A stretch of DNA of 64,000 bases. It comes from Watersipora subatra (taxonomy: Eukaryota > Bryozoa > Gymnolaemata > Cheilostomatida > Watersiporidae). The position numbers and the translations under genes were made by a program. Shown piece after piece: positions 5,107 to 47,100 of the stretch; positions within the stretch are counted from its first letter, which is position 1; each line of letters opens with the position of its first letter. The notes under the pieces are model-generated. The model was not told the origin of the DNA. It did not search any database and saw nothing but the letters and a program-made list of their open reading frames with translations. Where the stretch lies: the NCBI RefSeq assembly GCF_963576615.1, contig NC_088711.1, forward strand, positions 5,146,001-5,210,000, given 5' to 3'.

Positions 5107-5522
5107 TTAAAGGTTGACTTGCAACAAAATTCACATTACAGTTATTTGGTATCAAAAGATTCGCCATGTCTTGCTCTGTTGTGTTGTAGGTGTCAAATAT
5201 GTAGAAATGTGATTACAAGCTCTTAAAAGCTCAAAAACGAAAAGCCGCCGTAGATTGGAGTCTCTTGATTTCGATGACGTATCCGCAGAGTTTGGTTATT
5301 GTCTTGTCACGTGATGTTCTCGCATGAATTGAAAGGCCAATAAAAAGCTCAATATAAAACTTATCGTAGCAATAGTTTATGACAAACACTTCGGGTTTTA
5401 CCTAAGACCCCGTATCAAATATAGATGCTCGCTACTTTACAGTTTCAGCTTGGCCATTCCGTCCGACAATTCAACATACGTGTACATGTCCGAGTTGCAA
5501 TCATAAAAATTTTTCAAATTCT

Positions 5523-6130
5523 GAAGAGTTAAGACCCTGGCGTTTCGAGCCTGACGCTCTATCTGAAGAAGATCCTCGACAGAATCAAACCTCCCAGCAA
5601 GTAAGCACCGCCACTAGCCAGCTCTTATGTGCCAAGCTAGCTAGTAGTAATAGTTTTAGCTAGAGAGTGATAGAACGAATATTATTGTATATATGATTTT
5701 AATGATGATAATGATCGCTTCATATTGCGAAAAAATAATTAGATTTTTCTCGAATGACAACATTAACAATTTTAACATTTAAATCTAGTGCTGCACTGAT
5801 ATACTGTTGGATAACATCGACCAGATGTATTAGCTATGGTTGCATAGACATATCTGTTCATTTCTTTAGGAGCTAATACCACCGACTACAGAGTGGTGTG
5901 TCTGCAAGCGCTGTCAAGACATGCCATCTCTTCCTGAATGTTTGTGCTGCCATGATGCTGAGTTTGCGCATCGTCTCCATAACCACAGGGAGCATGAATG
6001 CCTGTGTATGCATCCTGGTGTGGACGAACTTGTGGCGCCTGCACCCCTGGAGTTGGGGTGGAATAATTACCTGCGATATCATACTGAGTTGGATTTTCAT
6101 TTAATGCCAACAACATCAAAGCTATGCTAG
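5523..6130 (+). CDS. P2X7 C-terminal (ballast) domain-like protein, two exons
   Basis: Exon 1 ends at 5600 (CAA, then GTAAGC). Exon 2 is 5870-6130 after TTTCTTTAG, both phase 0. Exon 1 encodes RPWRFEPDALSEEDPRQNQ, like the acidic 'FEP' lead-in of P2RX7_C proteins. Exon 2 encodes EWCVCKRCQDMP, then ECLCC and HECLCMHPG, the spacing of zinc-binding cysteines in the cytoplasmic ballast domain of P2X7. That domain is also found alone in many invertebrate proteins. No P2X channel part is present. The C-terminus is short: the Tyr/Arg-rich end of the domain is not seen before the stop at 6128-6130. Upstream, the frame is open from 5406 but has no ATG, so the start may lie in a lost exon or the copy may be decayed. 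The gene lies inside a TTAA transposon, convergent with its transposase. The function is unknown. Confidence 0.68.
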
Positions 6131-6387
6131 TGTGTCAAGCATTGTCTACAATTCTTGTGTTACACATTTAATGCATCGGTTGAACACAAATATTCTGAAC
6201 TCGTGGAACTCAAGGAGAATTGTTATATTTGGCTTGTACACTTCCTACAGTAGAGAGTGTATTAGTTTTATGATTTTATTATATAAAGATCGAGATTATT
6301 TTGATGATCAGCAATTATTGTTTTTCAATAATTGTTTTGGTAGATAATCTATTCCCATTTGGAGAGCCATCACCAAATGCTCGGAAA

Positions 6388-6584
6388 AGGTTGTGTGCAT
6401 ACCTCAATCTTGTGTTTTGGTTTATGCCGCAAATCTTGTTTGCAAGTCTGCAAACTCTTCTTCATCATCCGTTGGTGGGAAGAGCCCGAATCTTAGACAC
6501 CAAGAGGCAGGTAAAGGCCATCGCTCACCGTGACGAATTTGCGGCATAAGCCAAAACACAAGCTTGCGGTATGCACACAACCCT
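6388..6584. repeat. 47-bp inverted repeat around a ~100-bp spacer
   Basis: GGTTGTGTGCATACCTCAAT at about 6389, continuing through GTGTTTTGGTTTATGCCGCA, recurs inverted at about 6537-6584 with a few mismatches. It falls where the minus-strand transposase frame leaves its expected course after 'ITTD', so it may mark a rearrangement that helped break the transposase. Confidence 0.6.
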
Positions 6585-7939
6585 TGTAACAACATCTGTT
6601 GTAATGGACCTCACTTTCAGGCTGTGGAAAATTAGATCGGACTGGCATTGCTTGAAGCCTTCCAGCTCCATGGCATTAAAGCTGGTGGTCTCCGTTGACT
6701 GCAAAGTAAAATAAGTTACGACCAACAATCACTTTCACATTATTTGAATGAATTATTTAGCTAGATCAGCAACTTCATGTTTATGTATTGATAACTACTA
6801 AAACATTTGGGTTTTTATCAGGCTGTGAAGTAAAAACTGTCAATGTCAAAGTTTTACCTTGACAAGATGGCTGCTGACTATTAAACCGCAGCTCTGATCC
6901 ATCATAGTGTAGGCCCCGTATAGTGCGCAATGCTCCGGACTATCGCATCTACCGTCACCTGCCAAATCATGCTCCCAATCAATTGCTGCCATCAATCCCT
7001 CGTTATGCAGGGTGTACTGCTCAGCAATACACTGTAAAATATTGTAAAACTTCATTATACAAGATTAATTTGTATCATTATCATTAGTCTAAAAATGTAG
7101 AATCCTCTTCCCCTTTTTGTGTTATATTATGATGAAGAATCAGAATTTTAAATTATAATATATTTTGCTTGAAGGATGACATATTTTCATTTCAAGAAAA
7201 AAATTGTTTCTAAATGTCGTTATTCAATTAGTGTGCCTAGCTTTTACTCATATTTTCCAAGTTTATGGGTAAATATTAACACTCACACCATGTAAGCATT
7301 CTCTTTGTTGGTAGAGGCAAACGCTGTGGCTTAGTATAGCGATGTTCAGGAGCAACAGAAAACGGAGGTTCTGCGTAAGGCATCCGCCAGAAAAGAGTGA
7401 TGCAGCTGCCAGCAGGGGGTTGATGATGTGAGCTCTGTTCACCCTGGCAGTTGTTTCCCAAGTGTACGATTAGTGACAGGAGGCACATGTAACCTTGAAC
7501 TCTACCCATCCGCCTTCTCGCACCATTGTGAATGAGCAGGGGAGGGTGCAGGCGTGACAGCGAAATAGTCGCTGGAGTGCTGTCACACTTACTATTATTT
7601 TCTCTTCTTTGAAGGAGGATTCGGGTCTGAAATCACAACACAATAGTTGACTTGCAATAAGATTTGTACAACATCATTTCCTGTTATATCATATTTGCTT
7701 GATCAGAAAAAGAATAAATATATAGCCATGCAATCATGACACAGATTTTACAAAACCTTATCAGAATCCATGAAATTGTAAGCATAAAAATGTGAGTAAT
7801 AACTCTATGGATATTCTTTATATTTTGTCAAGTTTGGTTAAGTTCAGCTCTCTCTTACATGTAATTGGAGAGTGTTTGACGCTTGCCAACATAGCGCTCA
7901 AACTTTTCCCAGTCTTCAGTGGTTGGCACAAACTCTTCA

Positions 7940-8340
7940 TCATCTAATACTAATAATAATCATCTAATAATACTAATATGCTATTAACGATGATACCAGA
8001 AAATGACAATAACTATTTTGTATAACATATCTATAAGTGAGTGGGGTTAAAAAATTTGGCGAAATTAATCGTAAAACTTATAACATTATTTTATCAATTA
8101 TAGATTAATATATTACGTTTTACAGATAGATATGCAGTATGAATTAGTTTTGTTATTATAATAAAAATAATACACGTAATTAAAAAGATAAAATACTAAT
8201 AATATCATATTACAATTAAATGACATTAATATTGTAATATTAAATATAGATTAATACATTAGTATTAGGAGAATACTAGAAAATAACCCGAGTTACTACT
8301 ACTAATACAAGTAGTTCATAAAATAAATTACTCACGTGCT
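7940..8340. other. Very AT-rich interval inside the transposon
   Basis: Long runs of short TA-rich words such as ATTAATATTGTAATATTAAA, no open frame, located between the THAP remnant and the catalytic remnants. It could be an expanded or decayed transposase intron. Confidence 0.5.
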
Positions 8341-9176
8341 TTGGTGACATGTGGAGTATGCAAACAGGTTAGAAAACATGTTGTCTTTGAAATGGCAAAA
8401 ACAAAGGTAAGAGTAAGCAGGCGAATAAATAAAGTTTGTCACATCCAGCTTCACCCAGTTGCTCCACGCCCGATGATGGTCTGGTCTTTTCTCTGCTCTT
8501 GGCCAAGAAAAAAGGTGCTTCTCAGCTTGCCAGCTGCACAAACACGATGTGGCGCGTTAGACATTATGACAAATTGAAATTAACAAATTTAATACGAGAA
8601 AGCGTGTCTGTTATTTGCGATAGATCAAACTTGAACTGAAACTAACATTATCGGATCATGTGACTTACAATTCTCGCCATATGGCGCGAACAATTTCTAC
8701 AGCATTTTTCGACCATCATAGCGGACCAAAAGGCTCATCATGTTTGTCAGAGGATGATATGCAATCGTTCAAGCTAAGTTTAAAAAATTAAACATATTTT
8801 TATGCTAGGTTTTGAGATATCACTGCTCAAAGTTGCAGCATTGCGATGCCGATAAAATAGACGCGTAAGAACAACAGACATGGTTTTTATTACAAGCGTG
8901 AAGTATAGTTGTGAAAATATTTCGACGAATAAGGATGCATGAAAGTGTAAACATAAACTATCTCGCACACATATGTCACATTTTAGCCGTTTTGGAAAAC
9001 GAATCCAAACTAGGGCGGTCTCATGTCGCTGCGATTTTCTGTTCGTTTTTGAGCTTTTAAGAGCTTTTAATCACATTCCCACATATTTGGCACCTACCAC
9101 ACAACAGAGTAAGACATGGCGAATCTTTTGATACCAAATAACTGTACTGTGAATTTTATTGCAAGTCAACCTTTAA

Positions 9177-10122
9177 AGGTTGACTTGCAACAAAATTCAC
9201 ATTACAGCTATCTAGTATCAAAAGATTCATCATGTCTTACTCTGGTGTGTTATAGGTGCAAAATATGTGGAAATGTGATTACAAGCTCTTAAAAGCTCAA
9301 AAACAAACAGTTAATCGCAGCCATCGTGAAAATGCCGTAGATTGATATCCATTTTCAAAACGGCTCAAATGGGACGTAGCTGAAAACGATGGTTTCTGTT
9401 TACACTTTCATGCAACCTCATTCGTCGAAATATTTTCACAAATATTTCGACGAATGAGGTATGTATGTATACTTGTACGTATACTGTATGTATACTTCAC
9501 GCATTCACTAAAACCATGTCTATTGTCCTTACAAGCTTATTCCATTATCATTGTAATGCTGTCACGTTGAGCACTGATATCTCAAAACCTATCGTAAAAA
9601 TTCATTTAATTTTTAACCTTAGCTTGAAGGAGTGCATATCATCCTCTGATAAACATGACGAGCCTGTTGGTCACCTGTCATAGTCGAAAAATGCTGCAGA
9701 AATTGTTCGCGCCATTTGGCAGGAAGTAAGGGTCACATGATAAGATTACGACTAGATGATTAGACCAAGCTGAAATGAGACTGTAAAGTAGCGAGCATCT
9801 ATATTTGATTCGGGCTTTCCGGTAAAACCCGAAGTGTTTGTCATAAACTAGTGCTACGAGACGTTTTATATTGAGCCTTTTATTTCACGTGATAACATTA
9901 CATGTCAAAACAATAACTACAATGTTTGAGTTTGTCATCAAAATACAAAGATTCCAAACTATGGCGTTTTCGTGATGGCTGCGATTAACTGTTCGTTTTT
10001 GAGCTTTTAAAAGCTTGTAATCACATTTCCACATATTTTGCACCTACAACACAGCAGAGTAAGACATGGTGAACCTTTTGGTACCAAATAACTGTAATGT
10101 GAACTTTGTTGCAAGTAAACTT
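9177..10122. mobile_element. Non-autonomous TTAA MITE, deletion derivative of the Kolobok-like element
   Basis: It begins AGGTTGACTTGCAACAAAAT right after the TTAA shared with the larger element's right end. It ends with the inverted copy before TTAA at 10123-10126. Its left ~500 bp match the reverse complement of 8640-9172. Its right ~350 bp match the reverse complement of 5111-5470, meeting around CCAAGCTGAAA. It has no coding capacity. It lies about 30 bp from the last recognisable exon of the IgGFc gene. Confidence 0.75.
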
Positions 10123-10154
10123 TTAAGCTTTTCTCCTACAATATAACTACATAC

Positions 10155-10212: not shown

Positions 10213-13200
10213 CTTGTAGTTAAAACTTTGCTACAATATTATAACATTGTTAGATAAACATAACTTCTCTACAAAAGCTGATTATCACTCAGAGGTATTG
10301 AAGAAATCTTTGGCTAGATTTTCATATGAATACTGCAATTTTAGTGGTTGTGGTTGCTTTATTGATTTTACTCGTACATATAAAAGGAGTCTCTTTTTCT
10401 ATATAGGTAAAATTAATAGCGCAAACAAACATATTCAATACAATATCAATTTAAACAATAATGACAAGTAATATAGGAGTAGAATTACAGTCTTAATTGA
10501 TAATGGTGATTAATTTTCAATTGGGAATGCAGAGGTTAAAATAAGGTATCCGGTATGGCCTAAGTTAGAGGTTAACATAAGTTCCAACTTGTATACTTGG
10601 TGTGATCTTTTAATTTCCACAAGCATCAACTTTTAGTAGACATATTTGATATCAAACTGCTGTTCATCAAGCTTATTACAACTGCACAGAGAGACTGCAC
10701 CAATAGACAGACAGATCATTATTTACCTGCAGGTTACATCCAGTCAACACGCAGCAGCGGATGATTATGATGATTAGTACTACAACAACGATGGCTGTTG
10801 TCACAAACAGAATCATCTTCACAGCGTCACTCTCATATCTTTTGTCTCCATCTCCAACACCAAGCAACCCCTTCCCTATACAATGTATAAGATTACTTCA
10901 TTCAAGCAACACACTTGCATGTGAAATCATTGTGAGCAACGAATAAACGGTTCAACGTTAGCTGCTATTAGAAAATGTGCAAAAGTAAGCTAAATTAGTT
11001 TAGGTCTTGCAGAGCAAAAACTTGTGTCATCCCAGCCCCAGGTCTGGCAGAAGGTAAGAATATAGTGGTGTTGCACCATGAGTACCTGGCCTTGGTGTCA
11101 CAGCAGACGGCGTAGAAGGTATACTTTCTAAAACACAACATAAATCCTGTAAGACCTCATTATTATAAATAGTGTGGCGTGTAGTATAATAGGATTTCCC
11201 GGAATGCAAGAACAACTTGGCTACATAGCCTGTGAGACCACGAAGTCGATTCATTTATAAATGTACATTAGTAAAAGATTATTTAATATTATAAGTGACA
11301 AAGTGCCTAATATAGTGTATAATAATTTTGCGATGCGCTAACGAACCGATCAGCCTCTTGATCAACTAATCAAGCTTTTGACTACAAAATGGAGTGCTCT
11401 TTTTTGAACGACAAAAAAAGGGCACAAAAGGATAAATGTGTTACAACATCCTTTCAAAGAGCTTTCTCATCTGTAGAAGTGGTTGGCAACATGTCTGGAC
11501 AGGATAAGACTGGCTTCCTTATAAAATAAAACTTGTGTCTGAACAATCAGTAATTGGTAGTGTTCATGTATGCAACTTTGGCGACTACCAAGACAGAATA
11601 TTAACGGCTATACTGTTTGTGTACTCATCTAGCCACAGAGAATATAGATGTATGCTTCATATGAGAGCGTATCTTGTAATCTGTTAGCATTTAGCAAACT
11701 TTGTTCCCAAGCTCAAAAATACAACTCCCTGCTGCCTAGATTACATAGAATAGTTGAAGATAGAAGAATTGTAAAAACCAATATGTCATTTAGTGAGAGA
11801 CGCGTGTCAAGCCAACAATTGTGCCCTTCAGAGTCAATTTTGTGAGAGAAAACGTAGTACAAAGTGAGATAAACTCACAATGAGCGTATAAAAATAATTA
11901 CTTTAAAGCTGACTTGTGTGGGATTCAGGAGGGAATATAAGACAGCTGAACTAATACTTAATGCTTATTTAGGAAAATACAAAAATATCACTATATTCTG
12001 AAAAAGTTTTGTTTGATAATAACAGAGCGTTTACATCCGAAAGTGAGTGATAGATCTATTTACAAAGTATGGTGAGATAACTCAATATGAGGCATGATAA
12101 AAGATGATAAAGCCGTCCTTCAATTACACGATAAGATAAATCTAATACTTGTAAGCAGACTACAGCGTTTGACAGATTTACAAACATGCCTTGCTCTAAA
12201 TAATCTATTAGGCACACATCATGTGCGCTTGCAATTAACATGATTTGGTTGCAACTCTAATCTAACTCTAACTGTAACTCTAATCTTAGGATCCTTGTGC
12301 TATGCTGGAGAGCAGTAAGGGTGCCCATGAAAATGAAACCGAATGCCTACAAAGCTTATACATTCACTAAATATAATGCTGACTCTTCAATAATGGTGAG
12401 AGAATCAATGAAAAAGGGTTTATATGAAGGGCAAGTAAGCTTTCATGGTAACAGACCGGTGTGGGAGCATTGTCTGTATAGTTTAGAACAATTGTTTACC
12501 GCTTTTTCTGCTACTAAGTCACACACTTGGACTGTCTAACAGTCAGATGCAATGTATTGTCACCTGTTGGTTTCAACTACTCGCACGAGGATAGATGTTT
12601 AATTCAAAACTTGTCAGGTTTACTTAGTGATTTGGCGGACATGCAAGATATTATTTTGTTCTCAAAGACCCACTTGAGTGCTGTGAAGCAGTCGTGTTGA
12701 ATAAATATTATTCAACAGGACTTATTAAATAAAATTGAATGAAGTACTGCAGAGATTTGCAGAATCATTTTTTGCAATTTTAAGTATTCATCAATATAAA
12801 CAGTTACACACGTACCTGTTGTGGAGGGAGCTGGAGTGGATTTTAGGGCTGTAGAGGATGTTGTAGGGGTAGTAGACATTAAAAGTGTTGTACTTGAAGC
12901 TGATAATGTTGTTGTTGCATTTCCTATAGCTGTAGCACTTGCTGTAGTATTTGCAGCTGCTATACCTGTAGTGATCAGTGTAGCTGCTGAACTTGCTACA
13001 CCTCTCATGGTGCTTGTAGCTGGAATCCCAATAGTTGATATTGTACCTGTAGCTGACATTGTGGTTGTTGTGTCTGTAGTGGACATTGTGGTTGTTGTGT
13101 TTGCAGTTGACATCGTGGTTGTTCGGTCTGTAGTTGATATTGTTGTAATTGGGTCTGTAGTGGACATTGTGGTTATCTGGTCTGTAGTGGACATTGTGGT

Positions 13201-16200
13201 TGTTATGTCTGTAGTAGACATTGTGGTTATTGAGTCTGTAGTGGACATTGTGGTTATTGGGTCTGTAGTGGACATTGTGGTTATTGGGTCTGTAGTGGAC
13301 ATTGTGGTTGTTGTGTTTGTAGTGGACATTGTGGTTATTGAGTCTGTAGTGGACATTGTGGTTATTGGGTCTGTAGTGGACATTGTGGTTACTGGGTCTG
13401 TAGTGGACATTGTGGTTGTAGTGTCTGTAGTGGACATTGTGGTTATTGAGTCTGTAGTGGACATTGTGGTTATTGGGTCTGTAGTGGACATTGTGGTTAT
13501 TGGGTCTGTAGTGGACATTGTGGTTGTTGAGTCTGTAGTGGACATTGAGGTTATTGGGTCTGTAGTTGATAAAGAAATTGATGAATCTGTAGCTGACATT
13601 GTGGTTGTTGAATCTGCAGAAAACATTGTGATCTGGCTTGTGGCTGTTTGGCCTGTAGTTGATCTTGCGGTTGTTTGGTGTACAGTTGACATTGTGGCTG
13701 GTGGGTTTGCAATTGATAAAGGGACTGTTGAATCTGTAGTTGACATAATGGTTAGACCATCTGTAGTTGACATAGTGGTTAGAACATCTGTTGTTGACAT
13801 AATGGTTAGAACATCTGTAGTTGACATAGTAGTTAGACAATCTGTTGTTGACATAGTGGCTGTTGTCTCTACAGTAGATTCTTTAGCCAATTTACCTACA
13901 ATGATTGTTGTAGCTTTGGTACTGATACACAATACTGTTGTGGAAGTACCTGTTGATGTGGTTAAAGCTGTGACACTTGTAATTGTAGATCTTGAATGTT
14001 TTATAATAGTTATTCTGATTTTAGTTGCAGTAGCTGTTGTGTCTATTGCATCTGTAGTGACGAATGACGTAACCTTTATGACTCACAGCATGAATGCATC
14101 GCACTAGAGTGATACAGAGCAAAAAAGGTGAAACGGACCTAATACAACAGTCTTCATTTGTTGATATTTACTATAAACACTAACTATATGCCTTAAACAC
14201 ACTATCATCAAGATTCCGCAGTTAAATGAATGACAGGGATCATCAAAAGCTCAGCAGCATATATTATTTTAAAATATATTAACTAGCAAGAATGTGGAAA
14301 CAGCAAATGACTGCGTTTGAGCTCTGCATCAAGAGTTACACGGATTGCAGATTCAATCTACAGGTATGTCATAACATGGTCAGTATTCTGTGTAAAATAC
14401 CTTAGCCTGTCATCTTCCTAAGCATGCATTTGCAGTTATTGTTAAACATACTGACACTTCCACACCTGGCTTATTAGTGATAAACTTTCAAGTGTTCATT
14501 CAAACAACATCCAGACTAAACATGAAACTATAGTTTTTACAGGCGTTCCTACTTGTAGTTGACGTGATGGTTTTGACTGGAAACGCGGGACTTTCTGCCA
14601 AATCTTCATCTAAAATAAAGATGTAGAATATTTGAAATGCTTACATACTTGAAAAGCTTACCTGACAAGTAATTTAATGTCATCAATTTAAAATATCAAC
14701 AAATTGATGTTAACATGCCTAATATTGTAAAGAATGTAATAATTTGATTATGATTGAAAGTTATTATACAAGTGTGACTTGAAAGAGATTGCCACATAAG
14801 GTTGCAATTGGGAAACATAACACAGAGTATTGCATGTTCTGCATAGCAAAGTCCGTTTGTGGTGCAATAAAACACAATTTTGGTATATTTCATTAGTTTG
14901 ATGTGTTATTGAGATTAATTGCTTTTGTTTCAATGTAATTTAAGATATGGCCATGCTGTTACACTTGTCATACACTTTAATTGTATATGGTTCACTTTAA
15001 TTACATTTATTGAAGAGCAGAGACATCACAAGCAACCAGTTCTAAGAGCAATTACCAACTGATGATAAACAATACAAAGGCCACTACATCCAGCTAATAC
15101 ACAAACTAAGTCAGTGCGGTATAAACCACAAATTGGTGAACTTGATGACATTGTAACAGCATGATGTACATAATATCATAACAACATTCATAACCAAGGC
15201 TTACCCGCATGTTGTTTTAGCCTCACTACTTATACTAAGAACATTATTGTGACGCACCTATGGCACCGTCCCCATCATCATCTATGCCGTTATGAAGTTC
15301 TTCATCAATCGATCCATCACAGTCATTGTCTACTCCATCATTAACCAGACTTGCGGAGGTTTTACAGTAAGAGCCAGTCTTTGCCAGTCTCATTCCTGAA
15401 GATAAATACTAACCATCTCAACATACATATACAGGAGTAAACCTTGCCAATAGTAACAGAGGCGGATGCTATGATGGTGCCTTTATATTCTCAAAGAAGT
15501 AAGGCAGGTGTCATAAGGGTGCCTCTATTCTCGAAAAACTAAGGCTTCTAAAGTGCACAACTTCACCAACCACACATGTACCTCCAAACCAAATAGACAA
15601 CGCATGTTGACTTTAGCTGTGGGAAGTAAAGACAAGTAACTCAACAGAAATCAGCTCTAAAGAATTGTGGCAAACGATCTCACTGCGTTAGGCGCACCAA
15701 CCTGCTGGGAATCCATACGTCTCAAGATCTCCATGTCCATACATCATAGCATATATGGTTACAGTTGGGTTTGCATGGTTAATACTATGAGTGCCATTTA
15801 TGACAGCAATCGTTCTTGCAGAATAACCAGTGTTTCCTATGACCTGCCAGTCACTCTGAACCTGCATTATACCATTTTTTCCTCGTAAGAGCTGGGAATC
15901 GCAGCCAGGTTTTATAGCGTAACAGAAAAACAAGCTAGCATCTGTTTGACCTATAATATTCAGTTTGTCAATAAACAAGGAACTACTGTCTCATTTTCAG
16001 AAATCAATCTAAAGATAGAATTACTGCTATTTATGCAATGTTTAGACTAACTTGTCACGATATATTTTTACAGTTGACCTTTATTTATTCCGACACTAAA
16101 ATAAACTTGTTCTCTCCTAAACCTCTTATCTATAAATAGTTCAAAAAGAGGGACGACTCTACATTGACGATTTTGAAATAGCTACATATAGTTGTGAAAG

Positions 16201-24226: not shown

Positions 24227-24738
24227 TTAAAGCAGTGGTATTAATGGGCAAATAACTCCAACTCCTGTTGTGGAGGGAGCTGGAGTGGATGTTAGGGCGG
24301 TAGAGGATGTTGTAGCGTGAGTAGACATTGGAAATGCCGTACTTGAAGCTGACAATGTTGTTGTTGCATTTCCCACAGCTGTAGAACTTGCTGCAGCTGT
24401 AGTATTTGTAGCTGCTATACCTGTAGTAATCAGTGTAGCTGCTGAACTTGCTACACCTCTCATGGTAGCTGGAATCCCAGTAGTTGATATTGTATCTATA
24501 GCTGACATTGTGGTTGTTGTGTCTGAGGTTGACATCGTGGTTGTTGTGTCTGTAGTGGACATTGTGGTTGTTGTGTCTGTAGTGGGCATTGTGGTTGTTG
24601 TGTCTGTAGTGGACATTGTGGTTGTTGTGTCTGTAGTGGGCATTGTGGTTGTTGGGTCTGTAGTGGACATTGTGGTTATTGTGTCTGTAGTTGATAAAAC
24701 GATTGCTGAATCTATAGCTGACATTGTGGTTGCTGAAT
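24227..24738 (-). CDS. Mucin exon of the 5' unit, ending at a duplication-made stop
   Basis: The acceptor TTTTTTCTGCAG is strong. About nine nine-residue TTMSTTDTT-type repeats are followed by APSTTG, as in the other unit. There the other unit has donor CAG-GTACGT, but here the sequence runs CAG-GAGTTGG into former intron 1 sequence and stops (VGVICPLIPLL, stop). Compared with the other unit, about 0.77 kb upstream (matching 13641-14403) is missing. Confidence 0.78.
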
Positions 24739-27700
24739 CTGCAGAAAAAATTGTGATCTGGCTTAGCCTGTCATTTTCCTAAGCATGCATTGGCAGTTAT
24801 GGTTAAACATACTGACACTTCCACACCTGGCTTATCAGTGATAAACTTTCAAGTGTTCATTCAAACTACATCCAGACTAGACATGAATTTTTAGTTTTCA
24901 GAAACATTCCTACTTGTACTTGACATGATGGTCTTGACTGGAAACGCGGGACTTTCTGCCAAATCTTCATCTGAAATAAAAATGTAAAATATTCACTGCT
25001 TACAGGCTTTAAAAGCTTACCTGGCATGTAATTCAATGTCATAAATTTAAAATATCAACAAATTGATGTTAACACGCTATTAACACGCTATGTTAACACG
25101 TTATTGTAAAGAATGTAATAATTTGATTATGATTGAAAGTTATTATACGAGTGTAACTTGAAAGAGATTGCCACATAAGGTTGCAATTGGGAAACATAAC
25201 ATAGAGTATTGCACGCTCTGCATAGGAGAGTTCATTTGTGGTGCAATAAAACACAATTTTGGTATAATTCACTAGTGTGATGTGTTATCGAGATTATTTG
25301 CTTTTGTACCAACTTAATTGAAGATATGGTCATGCCATGACATTCGTAACCAAAAGCTTGGCTTACTTGCATGATGTTTTTGCCTCACTACTTATAATCA
25401 GAACATTATTTTGACATACCTATGTCACCGTCCCCATCATCATCTATGCCATTATGAAGTTCTTCATCAATCAATCCGTCACAGTCATTGTCTACTCCAT
25501 CATTAACCAGACTTGTGGAGGCTTTACAGTAAGAGCCAGTCTTTGCCAGTCTCATTCCTGAGGATAAATACTAACCATCTCAACATACATATACAGGAGT
25601 AAACCTTGCTAATAGTACCAAGGCACGTGCCATGATGGTGCCTTTATATTCTCAAAGAAGTAAGGCAGGTGCTATGATGGAGCCTCTATCCTCAAAAAAT
25701 AGGTAGGTGCCATGAGACTACCTATATCCTGAAAGAACTAGGCACGTTCCATGATGGTGCCTCTATTTTAAAAAAACTAAGGCTTCTAAAGCGCACAACT
25801 TCACCAACCACACATGTAATTCCAAACCAAATACACAACTTGTGTTGACTCTGACTGTGGGCAGTAAATACAAGCAACTCAACAGAAATCAGCTTTAAAG
25901 AATTGTGGCAAATGATCTGACTGCGTTAGGCGCACCAACCTGCCGGAAATCCATACGTCTCAAGATCTCCATGTCCATACATCATAGCATATATGGTTAC
26001 AGTTGGGTTTGCATGGTTAATACTATGAGTGCCGTTTATGACAGCAATTGTTCTTGCGGAATAACCAGTGTCTCCTATGACCTGCCAGTCACTCTGAACC
26101 TACATCATACCATTTTCTCATCCATTACTCGTTGCAGAAACTGTGAACATGTCTCTTCTTACTCATCTAACCATCAAGAACTGGTGGACCATTTATTCCA
26201 ACTCTCAACAGAGCTCTATGGTGATTATCACTTAACAAATGTTAAAGATTTGAATTGAGCAAAACGGTGTATAAAAACCATCCTTGGTTGTTACATAACA
26301 AGTCTTACAGCTTACAGATTCTCGAAGAGGCTTCTGAACTCCTTAACGCTTCCTAATATGGCCAAATGCTAACATTGACTTCAAAATGCCACATTTATTG
26401 AAGATATTCAAAAGAGATATGACTATGCTAAAGGTCTGCCTCTACTAGACCAGAAAGGAGCATACTATAATAACAGTAAACACATGCTGTATGCATAGTA
26501 TCAAACAGAATATGCACTGACAATTGAGAGGCATATAACTTTTACGATAAATAAAAACATATTCATTTTATTCTCATGCCCAATGACATTACTGAGCTTC
26601 AATATTTGACTTTTAGATTTACATATGATTACAAGTTAATAACCAAAGATGTGAAATAGCATTAAATATATCCGGTTTCATTGCTTTGTATCTCAGTGCA
26701 TTTTAAAGTCAAGACTTTCAATAGAGCTGAAATGATCAAAACCAAACGATCAAAACCTGGCAAATATGAAGTATTTGAAACAATACTACCGGCTAAAAGC
26801 AGGTATAACTGGTTGTACCGGCTAAAAGAAGGTGCAACTGGTGAAACCTTGAACACAATTAGACATCTGTAACACAGGAATAAAAGAAGGTGCAACTGGT
26901 GATACCTTGAACACAATTAGACATCTGTAACACAGGAATAAAAGAAGTGCATCATAAATGTGGGTAACAGAAAAACAAGCTAGCATCTGTTTGACTTACA
27001 ATATTCAATTTGTCAACATATAAGGAACTACTGTCTCATTTTCAGAAATCATTTTAAAAAGAACTACTGCTATTTATGCAATGTTTAGAAAAAATTGTTC
27101 TGATATGTTTTCAGATATCAGTACTCAACACAAAGTTGACCTTTATCTAATCCGATATTAAAATGAAAAATTTTTCTCTCTTTAACCTCTTCTATCTATA
27201 AATGGTTCATAAAGAGGGACGACTCTACATTGAGGATTTTGAAATAGCTACATATAGTTGTGAAAGTGGGTAGTCTTTTGGACCAGAGAAAAAGAGACTA
27301 CAAATGTAATGCAACCACCTACAACTTGGTGAGAAGATGTCACATGCAAGATTAGCCATGCAACAAGAACACCTACCCAGCTATTGTTATAGAAAGTATC
27401 CCCTTCTTTCAGATTGAGTTGCTGAAGAGTGGTGTTTAGAGCAGCACCGTTCAACAGGATGCCATCTCGCTCTCCGCTCTTCATTATTATGTTTACATAG
27501 TTTCTGACACAGACATAACAAGTAGTGACAACTCCCGAAATAGTATCAATATAACAACCTTAAACAACATGATTATAGCCTTTTACAGACAAATGTTAAT
27601 AATAGCAAAACAATCGTATGGTTAATGGCATGACCATTGAATATGTCTATTGTCTATACAGAAATGGGGAAGTGTTACCGGTAAGACGAACTAATTCCAG

Positions 27701-38158: not shown

Positions 38159-41100
38159 TTATTTAGCAAAATAGCAGTCAGTAGCCCAGTAGTTTGGCCT
38201 CCGAAAATGGCGCCTACCTTGTGTGCTAGCGAAGAACTGCTCTAGCCCGCTGGGTCCGATGTGTGCTTGATCATTCTCATATTCATATGCCTGTAGCACC
38301 ATGTCAAACTTGTCAAAATCTTTAACAAATTTAGCTTCGTTTGTACAGTTGTCTTCATATTCCTGCAACCACGAACAGGTTAATGATAGGCTCAATTCAC
38401 TGTCAGCTACCTTACAATCATGCAATTGAAAGGCAAATACAATTTCAAGATCGCACAGGCATGTGAAGCTGCGAGCAGACAATTTTATTTGTCATTCAAC
38501 ATCGTTTTTTCATAAAACATATTCCAACTGCATATTGCTAAGTTGCTAAATTGCTAGTTGGGTCCCTATTATGGCATGCTGAAAACCAGCCAAGTTTATC
38601 ACAGCCGAGCTTTTTAATATTTTACATAACACACCAAGAAGAACAGGATAAACGAGACTGCATTGTTTCATCGTCTAATTTGCCATATTTTTGCTATATT
38701 AATAAAGCTCCCTTTGTCATTGTGTCTGTCAGAGTAAACGTGATGCGTTTACACATTTTTTGCCCGATTGCATCCAAATTTTACACACCTATGCCGGCGT
38801 CTTCCGCAAGGTCGCTAAAAGTATTGAGCCTTTAAACTTTCCCTGTTTCCTGAAAACCAGCCATTTAAACACCCACCTTCGGGGTATCTGATCAAAAATA
38901 AAAGACATCTCGGGCAAAAGCCAGGCCTACTGCTAGCCCGGCAAAAAGCCAGCAGGCATTCGATTAGGGCGGGTCATGGAGTATCGGTCTACTAAGCTGA
39001 AATTCCCAAGTTCGAGCCCCGTATGAAACAATACATTATGAAGCAGCTTTGTTATTGCCTGTTATTTCTTCAGCGCAACAGATTCAAGCAAGATTACAAG
39101 TCATCAGAGTTTTATCAGTATAAGTAATCAATTGCTTTCCGGCTTTGCACAATCATCTTTAGTATAGTAAAAGAGGTGTTCTGTGACGTCAGAAAATTAT
39201 CATGTGAAGGAAGAATTATAAGAACAGACTGTATGAACTCCACGTATTACTTAAAATTTATTCAATGGGAAAAGACAGGCCCACTCCAAGCAATGCCAGG
39301 CTTAATTGGCAACCCTAGAAAAGACAGGCCCACTCCAAGCAATGCCAGGCTTAATTGGCAACCCTAGAAAAGACAGGCCCACTCCAAGCAATGCCAGGCT
39401 TAATTGGCAACCCTAGAAAAGACAGGCCCACTCCAACCAATGCCAGGCTTAATTGGCAACCCTAGAAAAGACAGGCCCACTCCAAGCAATGCCAGGCTTA
39501 ATTGGCAACCCTAGAAAAGACAGGCCCACTCCAAGCAATGCCAGGCTTAATTGGCAACCCTAGAAAAGACAGGCCCACTCCAAGCAATGCCAGGCTTAAT
39601 TGACAACCCTAGAAAAGACAGGCCCACTCCAAGCAATGCCAGGCTTAATTGGCAACCCTAGAAAAGACAGGCCCACTCCAAGCAATGCCAGGCTTAATTG
39701 GCAACCCTAGAAAAGACAGGCCCACTCCAAGCAATGCCAGGCTTAATTGGCAATCCTAGAAAAGACAGGCCCACTCCAAGCAATGCCAGGCTTAATTGGC
39801 AACCCTAGAACTTTCACTTCCATATAAATGTAAATGTGCCACAATGTATCTGGTTAGACACTCAAGAAGAATGCTCCTTCACATGCATCAAGGACAATTG
39901 TCCTCAATGAATCCTTCATGGATTATTGTTATGAAACCAGTGTAGCAACTTCTTCTGAAAATCCAAAGAGTACTGTCGGCTGTTTGCTTGAAATCTCAAA
40001 TCCACAACTTTAACCACTGAGCTATAGCACTCTTAGCATTTTAACACGCTGTTATCAAATAGTGTACACCATACGCACACGCTAAACAGCGTATTAGTTG
40101 AGCGTCGCGCCCGCGCATAACGATTCCCCTGTTATAAAACATTTTTTGCTTAACTCCATAGAACACGATGCTTTTTCGTTGGGGCGAATTTTTTCTGTAA
40201 CACAATATCAACAATAACTTTTCTCGAAATTAAAATTTGGCAATTTGTGTACTGATTATATACGTTATTAAAAAATATACATTGCTCACCATGGCGAGTT
40301 CAGCTCAGCGTTAAAAGTTTATTAAAATACATACTAAGACTTCCTTCAAGTTTGTGTTTAGTGAACTAAATTCATTCAAGTTAGATTCAGTGTTTATATG
40401 TTACACGTCTGTCTTGAAGGTGAGAACTCTGTACATAGTACATTGCAATGTTATATTATCTCGCAGATCATAACCACAAAATGCACTCGAGTCATAGTAG
40501 GTACCTATAGTTACTAAGGTTAACATATTATTTTGTTACTAATTTTTAATGAGGATGATTTTAAAGTTATTTACTAGGAGACGTTTGCATTAGATAATTA
40601 CTATAAGTTTCTATACCCCGCTATATATGAAATTTTTGCCTTACTATGCCAACACTGGAACGAATTAAAGTCGTATGGCAAGAATCCACTGTACTATAAA
40701 AATTCAACTTATCTGTAAGTGAATATTTAGACATGAAGAGTGTGATAGAAAGTAAGGAAATGATCCACCACACTCCCTAAAGCACCCTTCCAGCACATGA
40801 CTGCTGCAAAGTGATGTGACTTACACACTTACCTGCCACAGGGCAAGAATATCCTCTGCTATGGATTGGTCAGGCAAATGACTAGTCATGTCTGTTAGGG
40901 CATTCTACAGACAAGGTAAGAAATTGGAGGCTCCCTTAGCTCACAATATGAATTTGATACCAGCCATATATACATGTATTCATAATGCTATGTATATACC
41001 GAAAGGTTACAAGGGCCAGAATTTGTATCATGAGATACAGCGCATTTAAGACAGTTTCATACAGAACTTTGTAGCTTCGCGGAACTAAACTTGTCCATCT

Positions 41101-44100
41101 TTCTAAAATAGTCCCATGTACATTGAGGTGTGCATCTTTCAATATAAACATCAACTATTCATCAGCATAATGATGAAATACTTAAAACTCTGCAAGAATA
41201 CAATAAAATTTAATAATGATTAATGAATTGATTAATGTTGATACAACAAAAACATATTGTATCACCAAATATAACCATTGAAAATATTCAAGAAGGCAAT
41301 TGAAGGCATGTTTTGCTTATATTGAAGAAATAAATCGTAGCAGAACAGTTAATACTGTTGGTTTTGAACGGTCTAAAATTGTTGTGAACCACCATTGTGG
41401 TAATACAAATATGATTATACATCAATGAAACTGAGTGTTTATTTTGTAATATTAATCTGTTATGATGTAATGAATGTTTGCTCAAATCTTACATTGCGTA
41501 TCAAACAAAAAGACTTATATGTAGAGCTGATAGTCGCGAGAAGTTTGTCTGTAGTAAATGAGAGGAAGATTGAGAAAATGGTGTCAAGCAAAAAAGCCTG
41601 AAGCACTTGAAAGTGGAAAAGCTGGAAAAGCTGGACATGTTAATTAGAAAATAAAATTAACAAAAACAAAAATACAAATTAGTTATGTTAATTTAAAGGT
41701 TAACTTGCAAGAAAATTCGCATTACAGTTATTTGGTATGAAAAGATTCGCCGTGTCTTACTCTGTTGTGTTGTAAGTGCAAAATATGTGGAAATGTGATT
41801 ACAAGCCCTTAAAAGCTCAAAAACGAACAGTTAATCGCAGCCACACGAGACCGCCGTAGTTTGGATTCGCTTTCCAAAACGGCTCAAATGTGACGTAGTT
41901 ATGAGAGATGGTTTCTGTTTACACTTTCATGCAACATTATTCGTCGAAATATTTCACAAATATACTTCATGCATTCAATAAAACCATGTCTAATGTTTTT
42001 ACGCGTCTGTTTTATCATCATTTTAATGCTGTCACTTTTAGCACTGATATCTTATAACTTACCGTAAAAAATCGTTAAACTTTTTAACCTTAGCTCGAAG
42101 GGGTGCATATCATTGTCTGATAATCATGACGAGCCTGTTGGTCACCTGTGATAATCAAAAAATGCTGCAAAAATTATTTGCGAAGTATTGGGTCACATGA
42201 TCAGATTACGATGTGACGATTGAATAATGCCGAAACAAAACTGTGAAGTAGCGAGCATCTATACTTGATACGGGGTCTTCGGTAAAACCCGAAGTGTTTG
42301 TCATAAACTAGTACTACGATAAGTTTTATATTGAGCTTTTTATTGGCCTTTCAATTCACGTGAGAACATACGTGACAAGACGATAACCAAATTTCGTGGT
42401 TACGTCATCGAAATAAATAAATTCCGATCTACGGCGGCTTTTCGTTTTTGAGCTTTTAAGAGCTTGTAATCAAATTCCCACATATTTTGCACCTGCAACA
42501 CAACAGAGTAAGACATGGTGAATCTTTTCATACCAAATAACTGTAATGTGAATTTTCTTGCAAGTCAACCTTTAAAGTTAAAGTAGTATAATATCGACTA
42601 GCTCTGTACCTTCATCACCACCTCTACATCTACCTTCATCGCCACCTCTACATCTACCTTCATCACCACCTCTACATCTACCTTCATCACCACCTCTACA
42701 TCTACCTTCATCACCACCTCTACATCTACCTTCATCACCACCTCTACATCTACCTTCATCACCACCTCTACATCTACCTTCATCACCACCTCTACATCTA
42801 CCTTCATCACCACCTCTACATCTACCTTCATCACCACCTCTACATCTACCTTCATCGCCACCTCTACATCTACCTTCATCACCACCTCTACATCTACCTT
42901 CATCACCACCTCTACATCTACCTTCATCACCACCTCTACATCTACCTTCATCACCACCTCTACATCTACCTTCATCACCACCTCTACATCTACCTTCATC
43001 GACACCTCTACATCTACCTTCATCACCACCTCTACATCTACCTTCATCACCACCTCTACATTTACCTTCATCGCCACCTCTACATCTACCTTCATCACCA
43101 CCTCTACATCTACCTTCATCACCACCTCTACATCTACCTTCATCACCACCTCTACATCTACCTTCATCACCACCTCTACATCTACCTTCATCGCCACCTC
43201 TACATCTACATACATCGCCACCTCAACATCTACCTTCATCACCACCTCTACATCTACCTTCATCACCACCTCTACATCTACCTTCATCACCACCTCTACA
43301 TCTACCTTCATCACCACCTCTACATCTACCTTCATCGCCACCTCTACATCTACCTTCATCACCACCTCTACATCTACCTTCATCACCACCTCTACATCTA
43401 CCTTCATCACCACCTCTACATTTACCTTCATCACCACCTCTACATCTACCTTCATCACCACCTCTACATCTACCTTCATCACCACCTCTACATTTACCTT
43501 CAGCGCCACCTCTACATCTACCTTCATCACCACCTCTACATCTACCTTCATCACCACCTCTACATCTACCTTCATCACCACCTCTACATCTACCTACATC
43601 ACCACCTCTACATCTACCTACATCACCACCTCTACATCTACCTTCATCGCCACCTCTACATCTACATACATCGCCACCTCTACATCTACCTTCATCACCA
43701 CCTCTACATCTACCTTCATCACCACCTCTACATCTACCTTCATCACCACCTCTACATCTACCTTCATCACCACCTCTACATCTACCTTCATCACCACCTC
43801 TACATCTACCTTCATCCCCACCTCTACATCTACCTTCATCGCCACCTCTACATCTACCTTCATCGCCACCTCTACATCTACCTTCATCACCACCTCTACA
43901 TCTACCTACATCACCACCTCTACATCTACCTACATACATTTGTAAAGCTAGTCAAAGAGTTCAAACAATGGTTTTTAGGAGTAAAAGGTCGCTTTGTGAA
44001 AACTGAAAACTCAAAAGTAAACACGTGGCTGAATGTGTGACTGATAGCTCAAATAGTGTGGCTGATAGCCCATAAATATCCCTATCTGGGATAGGAGTGT

Positions 44101-47100
44101 ATAGCAAACAAGCTATCTGACCTTTTCTAGGGTATATTTGTCTGACTCTGAAACTCCACAATGAGGAGTTATGTCTCCCACAACAGCCTCAGCCATGTCA
44201 TGCACTATAGCCATCTTCATCACTCTATGGAAACATAAAAAGTGTCCATGTGATACTAATATTTAAGTAGAGATCAGTCACTATATAATGAGCCATCTCC
44301 TGTTTATAATGATGCCATGATACTTAAATCTTTAAACAGCAATAAATTAGAATATCTTGTGGGTCAAACATTTCTCATGATCCCCCATGGCAAAAGTAGA
44401 TGGTGTGAGTAGACCAGAGTAGACATTGTGTTAAGTGCACGGATAAAGCTCAATGCTATTGGCTTTATATGTCAAAACTATTTTAATATTAAAGGTTGAC
44501 TGGCAACAAAATTTACATTACAGTTATTTGGTATCAAAAGGTTCACCATGTCTTACTCTGCTGCGTTTTAGGTGCAAAATATGTGGAAATGTGATTACAA
44601 GCTCTTAAAAGCTTCAAAACGAACAGTTAATTGCCGCCATCATCAAAATTTTATATACATACTGTAAATGTTAAAAATTAGTAACAAAATACTATATGTA
44701 ACCTTAGTAACTATAGTTACCTATAGTAACTTTAGTGGTTATGATCTGCAATAAAATGTAACATTACAATGTACTATGTGCAGTAGCAGTAGTGCGCACT
44801 GTAGGGAGTTCTCACCTTTGAGACAGACATACAACAAAAATGTTAAATTTAACTTAAATGAATTTAGCTAACTAAACACATACAACATACACAAGCCAAG
44901 TTTTAGTATGTATTTTGCTAAACTATACTTCAACCTTGTCATTGGCTAAAATTTTATCACCTATCTGTTACCGGTTTTGTTTTCACTATAATTTATAACG
45001 AATAATGCTGAACTTAGAGAGAACGAGCATCGTATCTCTTTCAGGCGTTGCGGGAGGGATTTGGGCGAATAGCATATTGGCATCTTCGTTATTTCGACGT
45101 ATTCAGAACACCAACTGCAAAAATTTAATTTTGAGAAAGAAATTTTTTCACATCGTATGGCAAAAAAATATCATATGGCGAGGATGAAAAAATATCATAT
45201 GGCGAGGATGAAAAAATATCATATGGCGAGGATGAAAAAATCTCATATGGCGAGGATGAAAAAATATCATGTGTGACATTGTAAGGCATCATATAACAGG
45301 ATTATCGTAACCCAAGGGCGCACTGTATAAGAGTACATTGTATTCTGTTAAATGCCCTGCAAGGCTTAAAAAGCTAGAATAAATGTTTGAATGATTATAT
45401 GTAGCACTAATGTAAATATAATGTATGAAATTATGTAAACAACTAAACATAAAACTTAAAATGCATCGAAAATCTAAATAAACAAATAATAATCCATAAA
45501 AAAATTTATATTGTTACTTTACTTTAAAAACATGACAATGCAGGTGTAGACCAGCGATGACTGATGTGCGCGTAACTTACTCATCTATATGATTTTAATT
45601 ACTTGTTTAAAAAGTTTTTGTTATTTTTATTTTGGATTGACTTTTTTACTTTTATTTAGCAAATTATGTTTCGAAGAAATTTGGACATTGTACGTTAAAA
45701 ATTACTTTCTACATCAAGACAAAGATTTGCTCAAATTTTATGACACAAATGTAAAAACTGGTGTATAGAGGTGATCTAAAAACTGGTGTATAGAAGTGAT
45801 CATAAGTCCAGGTTTGACTGTAACTAATAGCTCACAATAAATACTGACACTGACCGTAAAACCTCTATTTGAATGACATGGTGCTCTATTTTTTAATCCT
45901 TCCTCTAAAGTGGTGTTTTATTAGAGTTGATGTTTAAATAGAGGGTGGCGCTGTATTTTGTGACTAGCTCATCAGCATTTAAGGAAGACAAATTTAACCC
46001 TTTTACGGGCAATGCTAAAGTGTTACCTATATTTTGCAATCTCTTCTGGGCAGAGCGACATTAATGCGGTCGACTTCAGCATCTTTGCTAAACAGTTTTT
46101 CATATACGCCAAAGTATCAGACCAGGTTAAACAAGGAACTACTTTGAGTAAAAAAGTATTAGTCGGATATAGCTATTAATTATTTTGATGGTGTTGTTTT
46201 CAGTTTTAAAGAAAAAAACTCTAAAGGTTTGGAGTTGGAAAACCGACCTCGGTACGCTATAACAATAGCTGCTATTACATCGTACCGTGTTCCTGAAGAG
46301 TATTCTCATGGTTTGTCAAAACGCTTTAAAGTGTTCAGGTAAGATTGTAAACCACATTATAGAGGAATCTGAAAAAAATGAATTGGATTTAGACCTTAGT
46401 CACCTCGAATCGGTGTAGTTCGGATGGTTGTGACGATCGAATTCTCAAGTACACTGTCACTAAAACCATGGCAACCAACTACAGCAACAACAACTACAAG
46501 CAATAACAACAATTTATTAGTACCATTTTGCAAACATTTTTTGAATGGTCACTTTTTATTATGGGTTCATAAAGATCAAAGAATGTCAAAATGGCAGTCA
46601 AATAGAGATGGCGTTCAATTAAAGGGTGGCGCTGTATTTTTAAACCCTCTTCCTATAATGGCGTTCAAATATAGGTGGCGTTCCAATAGAGGTCTTACGG
46701 TAACTCATCTACATTTAAACTTCAACAAACTTTAAAGTGTAACTCCAGGTTATACACATTGCATTCTAGACCAGATTGTCGAGAGGTTTTCTAATATCAC
46801 ATGCCAAATTCCCTATGCATGATATGGAAAAAGTTCCTCTCAGCTTACTTGTATTTATTCACAGTCAAGGTTTCTGGAATCATCATGCCCATGACAGCCA
46901 TGCGGTACATGTGAGAGGCAACGGTTTCAGGTTCCAAAACCCCACACTTCACCCAGCCAGTTCTTTTTAAATGCTAAAAACAATCAGACATCCCATACCT
47001 GATCATGTACTTACAGTCATACATCGACTTACGAGCTTAATGCGTTCCGAGACTGAGCTCGTATGTCAATTTACTCGCATGTTGGTGCAATTTATTTATA

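Follow-up and report, generated by a model that had tools for sequence, protein, structure and literature searches.

A dead copy of a probable Kolobok-superfamily transposon with a P2X7 ballast-type gene, and the probably non-autonomous family to which it belongs, in the bryozoan Watersipora subatra

Kolobok elements of the Kol0 lineage encode, besides their transposase, a second protein named KolX (Kojima & Bao 2022, PMC9587614), and that paper describes KolX as a homologue of the P2X7 ballast (residues 476-595), with P2X7, and probably also Nanor, deriving from captured KolX. The same available text separates Kolobok from piggyBac by 5'-RR/YY-3' ends, describes piggyBac versions of the domain as being without most of the conserved cysteines, and does not contain the word THAP. 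A 2020 study of the origin of the ballast (or ZCD) recorded its occurrence from sponges to vertebrates, and the accessible main text of that study has no word beginning with “transpos” (PMC7016195). The link between transposons and the P2X7 ballast is already in print since 2022, as far as the available text of PMC9587614 goes, and there the KolobokP elements are also described, which belong to the same superfamily and likewise carry a transposase and an accessory protein on opposite strands, but differ in having a His-Me nuclease as that protein and in their long terminal direct repeats. In the literature on KolX, Kolobok and the P2X7 ballast, we found no report of the truncated family described below nor of a genome-wide count, and what is new here are details, namely the shared junction with an inverted KolX last exon, the missing C-terminal half of the transposase, and the selection counts for KolX.

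The locus under study lies in a stretch of 64,000 nucleotides of Watersipora subatra (C4:5146001-5210000, hereafter “the window”), taken from a genome of 784 Mb which was searched for further copies. Its element, the representative of what we call family A, is similar to the Kol0 lineage (type Kolobok-1_XT) in its TTAA targets, its AG...CT ends, and its combination of a transposase with a P2X7-ballast second gene. Unlike Kol0, family A has its KolX split into exons, carries an inverted duplicate of the last KolX exon between the two genes, and shows no C-terminal half of the transposase in 22 of 22 sequences (the window, 20 fetched copies, and the copy L067, some of them incomplete, compared with one fragment from a second family). 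With a probability of about 0.88, we consider the window copy to be a dead, non-autonomous DNA transposon of the Kolobok superfamily (Kol0-type), whose founder would have been truncated and would then have spread in trans.

The element proper occupies positions 5111-9172, starts with AGGTTGACTTGC, ends in CAACCT-3', and is flanked by a left TTAA target-site copy at 5107-5110 and a right TTAA at 9173-9176, the latter in common with an adjoining short element and both without strand. Comparison of the two ends gave a left terminal inverted repeat at 5111-5244 (plus strand, starting with AG) and a right one at 9039-9172 (minus strand, ending in CT), which together with the TTAA copies form arms of 138 nt at 5107-5244 and 9039-9176, 93% complementary to each other, and the single TTAA-bounded inverted-repeat element that the initial annotation had claimed is, thus, borne out. 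The AG...CT termini of the element follow the 5'-RR...YY-3' rule given for Kolobok in the available text of PMC9587614. The 4-bp TTAA target duplication, also a Kolobok feature, is present in the window and in 14 of the 17 fetched copies in which both ends were located.

Several short elements with the same ends lie in the window as well. An inverted one of ~0.95 kb (9173-10126) abuts the main element, with which it shares the TTAA at 9173-9176, its far end likewise being TTAA; another of 0.88 kb, with TTAA at either end, lies at 41693-42575, and one more end occurs singly at 44489-44637. Just after the 0.88-kb element there is a 24-nt tandem repeat with 55 copies and a 96% match (42607-43935) that is open in more than one frame. 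Two separate groups of arrays with a similar 27-nt repeat (GTAGTGGACATTGTGGTT..., at 13047-13859 and 24490-24755, inside long open frames) and a 49-nt tandem repeat (39269-39810, 11 copies, 98% match) were also observed, and an Rfam scan of the window gave no match.

Family A is numerous in this genome. KolX exon 2 gave at least 150 matches (from 742 first-look candidates), the left end gave 3323 first-look candidates (with a match for each of the 40 that were scored), and in 28 of the 30 best KolX copies, the window included, the alignment begins within the first 11 element positions, the end being cut by the locus edge in the remaining two. From 20 KolX-picked copies fetched at 7 kb each, both ends could be located in 17; the 10-base flanks printed for the 14 with a two-sided TTAA all differ, TTAA is missing on one or both sides in L044, L053 and L057, and, in addition, L046 and L054 extend beyond the fetched stretch on the left and L052 has no visible right end. 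As for whether same-ended copies carry both frames, the check that the initial annotation proposed, transposase exon C is present in 19 of the 20 KolX-picked copies (L053 has an internal deletion and L045 a partial exon), and KolX exon 2 is present in all seven transposase-picked copies (L067 and six short stretches, taken where the exon was predicted to lie in copies absent from the listed KolX matches), these seven coming from one uniform subfamily and not being independent. Among the 150 exon C matches listed, 70 share the same 150.6 bits, nearly all of them 96% identical to the window exon, which suggests a subfamily that is both young and uniform. Transposase copies without KolX were considered as well, the listed KolX and exon C matches overlapping in only 38 of 150, and were rejected given that 7/7 such copies do carry KolX. 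When eight loci were picked by the left end instead (one being the window), KolX lay within 1.5 kb in four and was absent in four, namely three both-ended elements of ~0.9 kb and one left end beside another partial copy; among the sampled copies, which are a small part of the matches, no full-length same-ended copy without KolX was seen.

The KolX gene lies on the plus strand. Its exon 1 (5514-5600, start approximate) reads SNSEELRPWRFEP... and ends at a donor with CAA before and GTAAGC after the junction, and it is without the ATG that is present in the sister copies L041, L053 and L067. Exon 2 (5870-6127), preceded by the acceptor TTTCTTTAG, is open and contains the first half of the ballast domain (WCVCKRC...CLCC), and a remnant of exon 3 follows at 6344-6434 (start approximate), collapsed after ...RKRLCAYLNLVFWFMPQI; this last exon is complete or nearly complete in four of the 20 fetched copies (L047, L048, L056 and L057). 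The gene had been described as a two-exon plus-strand gene, of which the plus strand and the multiple exons stand, while a third block, collapsed in the window copy, has to be added. No clear GT donor was found before the exon-2 stop codon in family A copies, so that the splice between exons 2 and 3 is putative.

The proposed match of this gene to the P2X7 ballast holds at the level of the family, but not for the window exon taken alone, the 86 residues of exon 2 reaching just 10.1 bits (E 0.74) against PF20478, whose cut-off is 23.5. PF20478 was listed for 13 of the 14 exon-2 sequences scanned, with a best E of only 0.086, and neither the window exon 2 nor the exon-2 profile matched a P2X7 chain among solved structures. 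In contrast, the last exon of the less damaged sister L057 exceeds the cut-off of 23.5 with 23.9 bits (E 4.5e-5). On the profile of full-length KolX proteins from a second family of the same genome (family B, described below), exon 2 falls on columns 82-157 (hhalign, probability 50% and E 1.6e-4) and exon 3 follows on columns 171-213 (probability 79% and E 1.7e-5), that is, colinearly. Like the P2X7 ballast, or ZCD, in the available text of PMC7016195, the domain has a zinc-binding cysteine cluster followed by an AYR...W...PxC...IR block; unlike P2X7, the window gene sits inside a transposon, and no P2X7 channel part was found in the window frames scanned. Judging from these alignments, family A carries a KolX homologous to P2X7 476-595, as the Kol0 lineage does. 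A search of viral contigs with the KolX profile gave 65 pattern matches, none of which was confirmed.

The best PF20478 matches in the genome (L001-L008) belong to family B, a separate element with TTAA-AGGGAAAGT ends, the left end reading TTAA-AG(G/A)GAAA in seven of these eight loci. Family B resembles family A in its TTAA and in its convergent pair of KolX and Kolobok-like transposase, but differs in its ends, in its unsplit KolX, which runs as a single long open frame (about 250-270 aa), and in having a transposase C-terminal fragment, found on the opposite strand in seven of the eight loci when L001, the source of the query, is counted. We take this fragment to be Kolobok by its HTGALE...LA-DHN motif and by its TTAA, THAP and KolX context. 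In L002, the only locus in which THAP was tested, it scores 36.7 bits, and the KolX of the same locus reaches 58.9 bits against PF20478; the family-B KolX profile matches solved P2X7 chains at residues 477-595 (E 7.6e-6). L002 and L003 (C5:46345030-46353263) hold two near-identical KolX genes which are 4.7 kb apart and inverted relative to each other, so that an inverted duplication of recent date seems likely.

Searching the whole genome with PF20478 gave at least 70 matches (150 of 534 first-look candidates being scored), and in at least 59 of these 70 a converging transposase fragment lies within 4 kb (the fragment having at least 150 matches, from 279 candidates), compared with 0.03 expected by chance at random positions; these 59 cases are not independent, since all 70 matches come from family B, some of them recently duplicated. 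All 70 overlap or adjoin family-B KolX matches, which holds among the scored candidates, so that a single host gene could have escaped. The 11 matches without a nearby fragment are likewise family-B KolX and could represent either copies with deletions or KolX genes standing alone. The suggestion that stand-alone ballast domains owe their spread to carriage by transposons fits this genome (70/70 scored PF20478 matches being family-B KolX, 59 with a converging fragment), and it is already in print (PMC9587614).

Among the alternatives to a KolX with a role in transposition, the one which survives best, though still unlikely, is that KolX is a captured host gene carried as cargo, and the selection counts bear on it. 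These counts are small, and they come from related copies which cannot be taken as independent. Among the KolX-picked copies, the ratio of nonsynonymous to synonymous changes relative to neutral was 0.44 for KolX exon 1, 0.48 for exon 2 and 0.88 for exon 3, with an exon 2 stop in two of 30 rows, and it was 0.72-0.92 for the transposase exons of the same copies; the 0.48 of exon 2 was set aside as a sign of selection, given that these copies were chosen by their exon-2 similarity. In the seven transposase-picked copies, KolX exon 2 has 19 nonsynonymous and 7 synonymous changes and no stops (ratio 0.91), and 10 nonsynonymous and 3 synonymous changes separate the majority sequence of this subfamily from that of the other copies (ratio 1.14), so that there is no clear sign of purifying selection on KolX in the young subfamily, or of a need for its own KolX, whereas in the KolX-picked set the ratios for exons 1 and 2 point the opposite way. 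The near-neutral values speak for cargo. Against it, the same convergent pair occurs in two families with different ends, the pairing of transposase and KolX is published as a property of the whole lineage (in the available text of PMC9587614), little can be learned about autonomous families from neutral drift in a non-autonomous one, and the ratio of 0.48, with the reservation just made, is on the same side. We rather suggest that, in intact Kol0 elements, KolX would be a small zinc protein that assists the transposase, perhaps by joining it in the end complex or by acting at the integration step.

The second gene of the window element, on the minus strand, converges with KolX at ~6435-6590. 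It consists of a frame-shifted THAP-like exon (8332-8577), exon B with one in-frame stop (7285-7640), exon C containing GDGRCDSP (6880-7064), and exon D (6590-6725), which ends ...RSITTD and whose frame continues into the inverted KolX exon 3. A THAP domain, together with TTAA, was taken in the initial annotation as fitting Kolobok. In the window it scores 14.2 bits (E 0.075), under the Pfam cut-off of 23.9, and in four scanned sister frames, out of eight found, it reaches 18.3-19.6 bits (E 0.0017-0.0041), also under that cut-off; most rows of fetched copies have THAP out of frame with its start, and THAP identity in family A is plausible. None of the other transposase exons exceeded a Pfam or NCBIfam cut-off, the best being a zinc-ribbon model with 16.2 bits (cut-off 29.8), and no piggyBac Pfam match was found in the frames scanned. 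We call exons B to D transposase because of the GDGRCDSP-type signature, presumably the block with the first catalytic D, together with TTAA and the sister family B. No C/DxxH signature of the Kolobok DDD/E transposase was seen in family A, and the C-terminal half itself was not found in the 22 sequences. From the initial reading of a broken, convergent minus-strand transposase, the disrupted frame and the convergence remain, whereas its THAP part stays below the Pfam cut-off and its transposase exons are without a profile match.

Between the two genes lies the inverted copy of KolX exon 3 (6435-6585, minus strand, limits approximate), whose outer arm at 6537-6585 pairs with 6386-6434 at 92%. 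The state of this palindrome varies, with the forward exon 3 complete in some copies and collapsed in others, including the window, but a 100-base stretch spanning the junction of exon D with the inverted exon is present in 20 of 21 copies, the single one without it being L053, where it is deleted. The family-B C-terminal fragment gave no match at E up to 1 in the 22 family-A sequences. Family A looks non-autonomous, then, given this shared junction and the C-terminal half that was not found. As for the window copy itself, it is dead: its KolX has no ATG and a collapsed exon 3, its exon B has a stop, and its THAP exon is frame-shifted. Most likely, the founder of the family would have lost the second half of its transposase as an inverted copy of the last KolX exon was joined in, by an event resembling snap-back repair, and the family would then have spread in trans, with its TTAA ends recognised by the Kolobok transposase of an autonomous relative that has these ends in common with it as targets. 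No such autonomous partner was found in the copies examined.

In analogy to the short P-element repressors, the truncated THAP-transposase with KolX could also have persisted because it represses the autonomous element. The retention of the DNA-binding side and one common truncation (the junction in 20/21 copies, and 22/22 sequences, some incomplete, without the C-terminal fragment) are compatible with this, but 18 of 26 exon B rows contain stop codons (at 1.37 times the neutral expectation), and most rows have THAP in another frame than its start, making such a repressor very unlikely. Only slightly more credible, as a whole, is the wider conjecture in which the ballast gene would occur in this genome solely as a transposon-borne gene, in two or more families and convergent each time with a Kolobok transposase, and in which family A would have become non-autonomous through a reversed copy of the last KolX exon within its transposase, the resulting THAP-plus-KolX element spreading in trans and perhaps damping its parent. 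A piggyBac-type element, which would share the TTAA targets, is highly improbable in view of the AG...CT ends following the Kolobok RR/YY rule, the presence of the first-half cysteine cluster, when piggyBac versions are without most conserved cysteines (both comparisons after PMC9587614), and the THAP-like exon. Finally, a chance cysteine pattern unrelated to P2X7 is hardly believable, for even though the window exon is below the PF20478 cut-off, the best of 14 exon-2 sequences has an E of 0.086, and neither the window exon nor the exon-2 profile matches a P2X7 chain in solved structures, exons 2 and 3 are colinear with an undoubted ballast protein, and the L057 copy has an exon 3 over the cut-off.

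In summary, the preferred reading of a dead copy from a truncated Kol0-type family adds a genome-level check to the published claim that the P2X7 ballast domain stems from a transposon protein, and besides the family-B matches (70/70 of those scored), a more diverged KolX is carried in this bryozoan by family A. The single-frame KolX copies of family B provide material for testing the function of KolX, and the “stand-alone P2RX7_C proteins” found in annotations may often be transposon genes.
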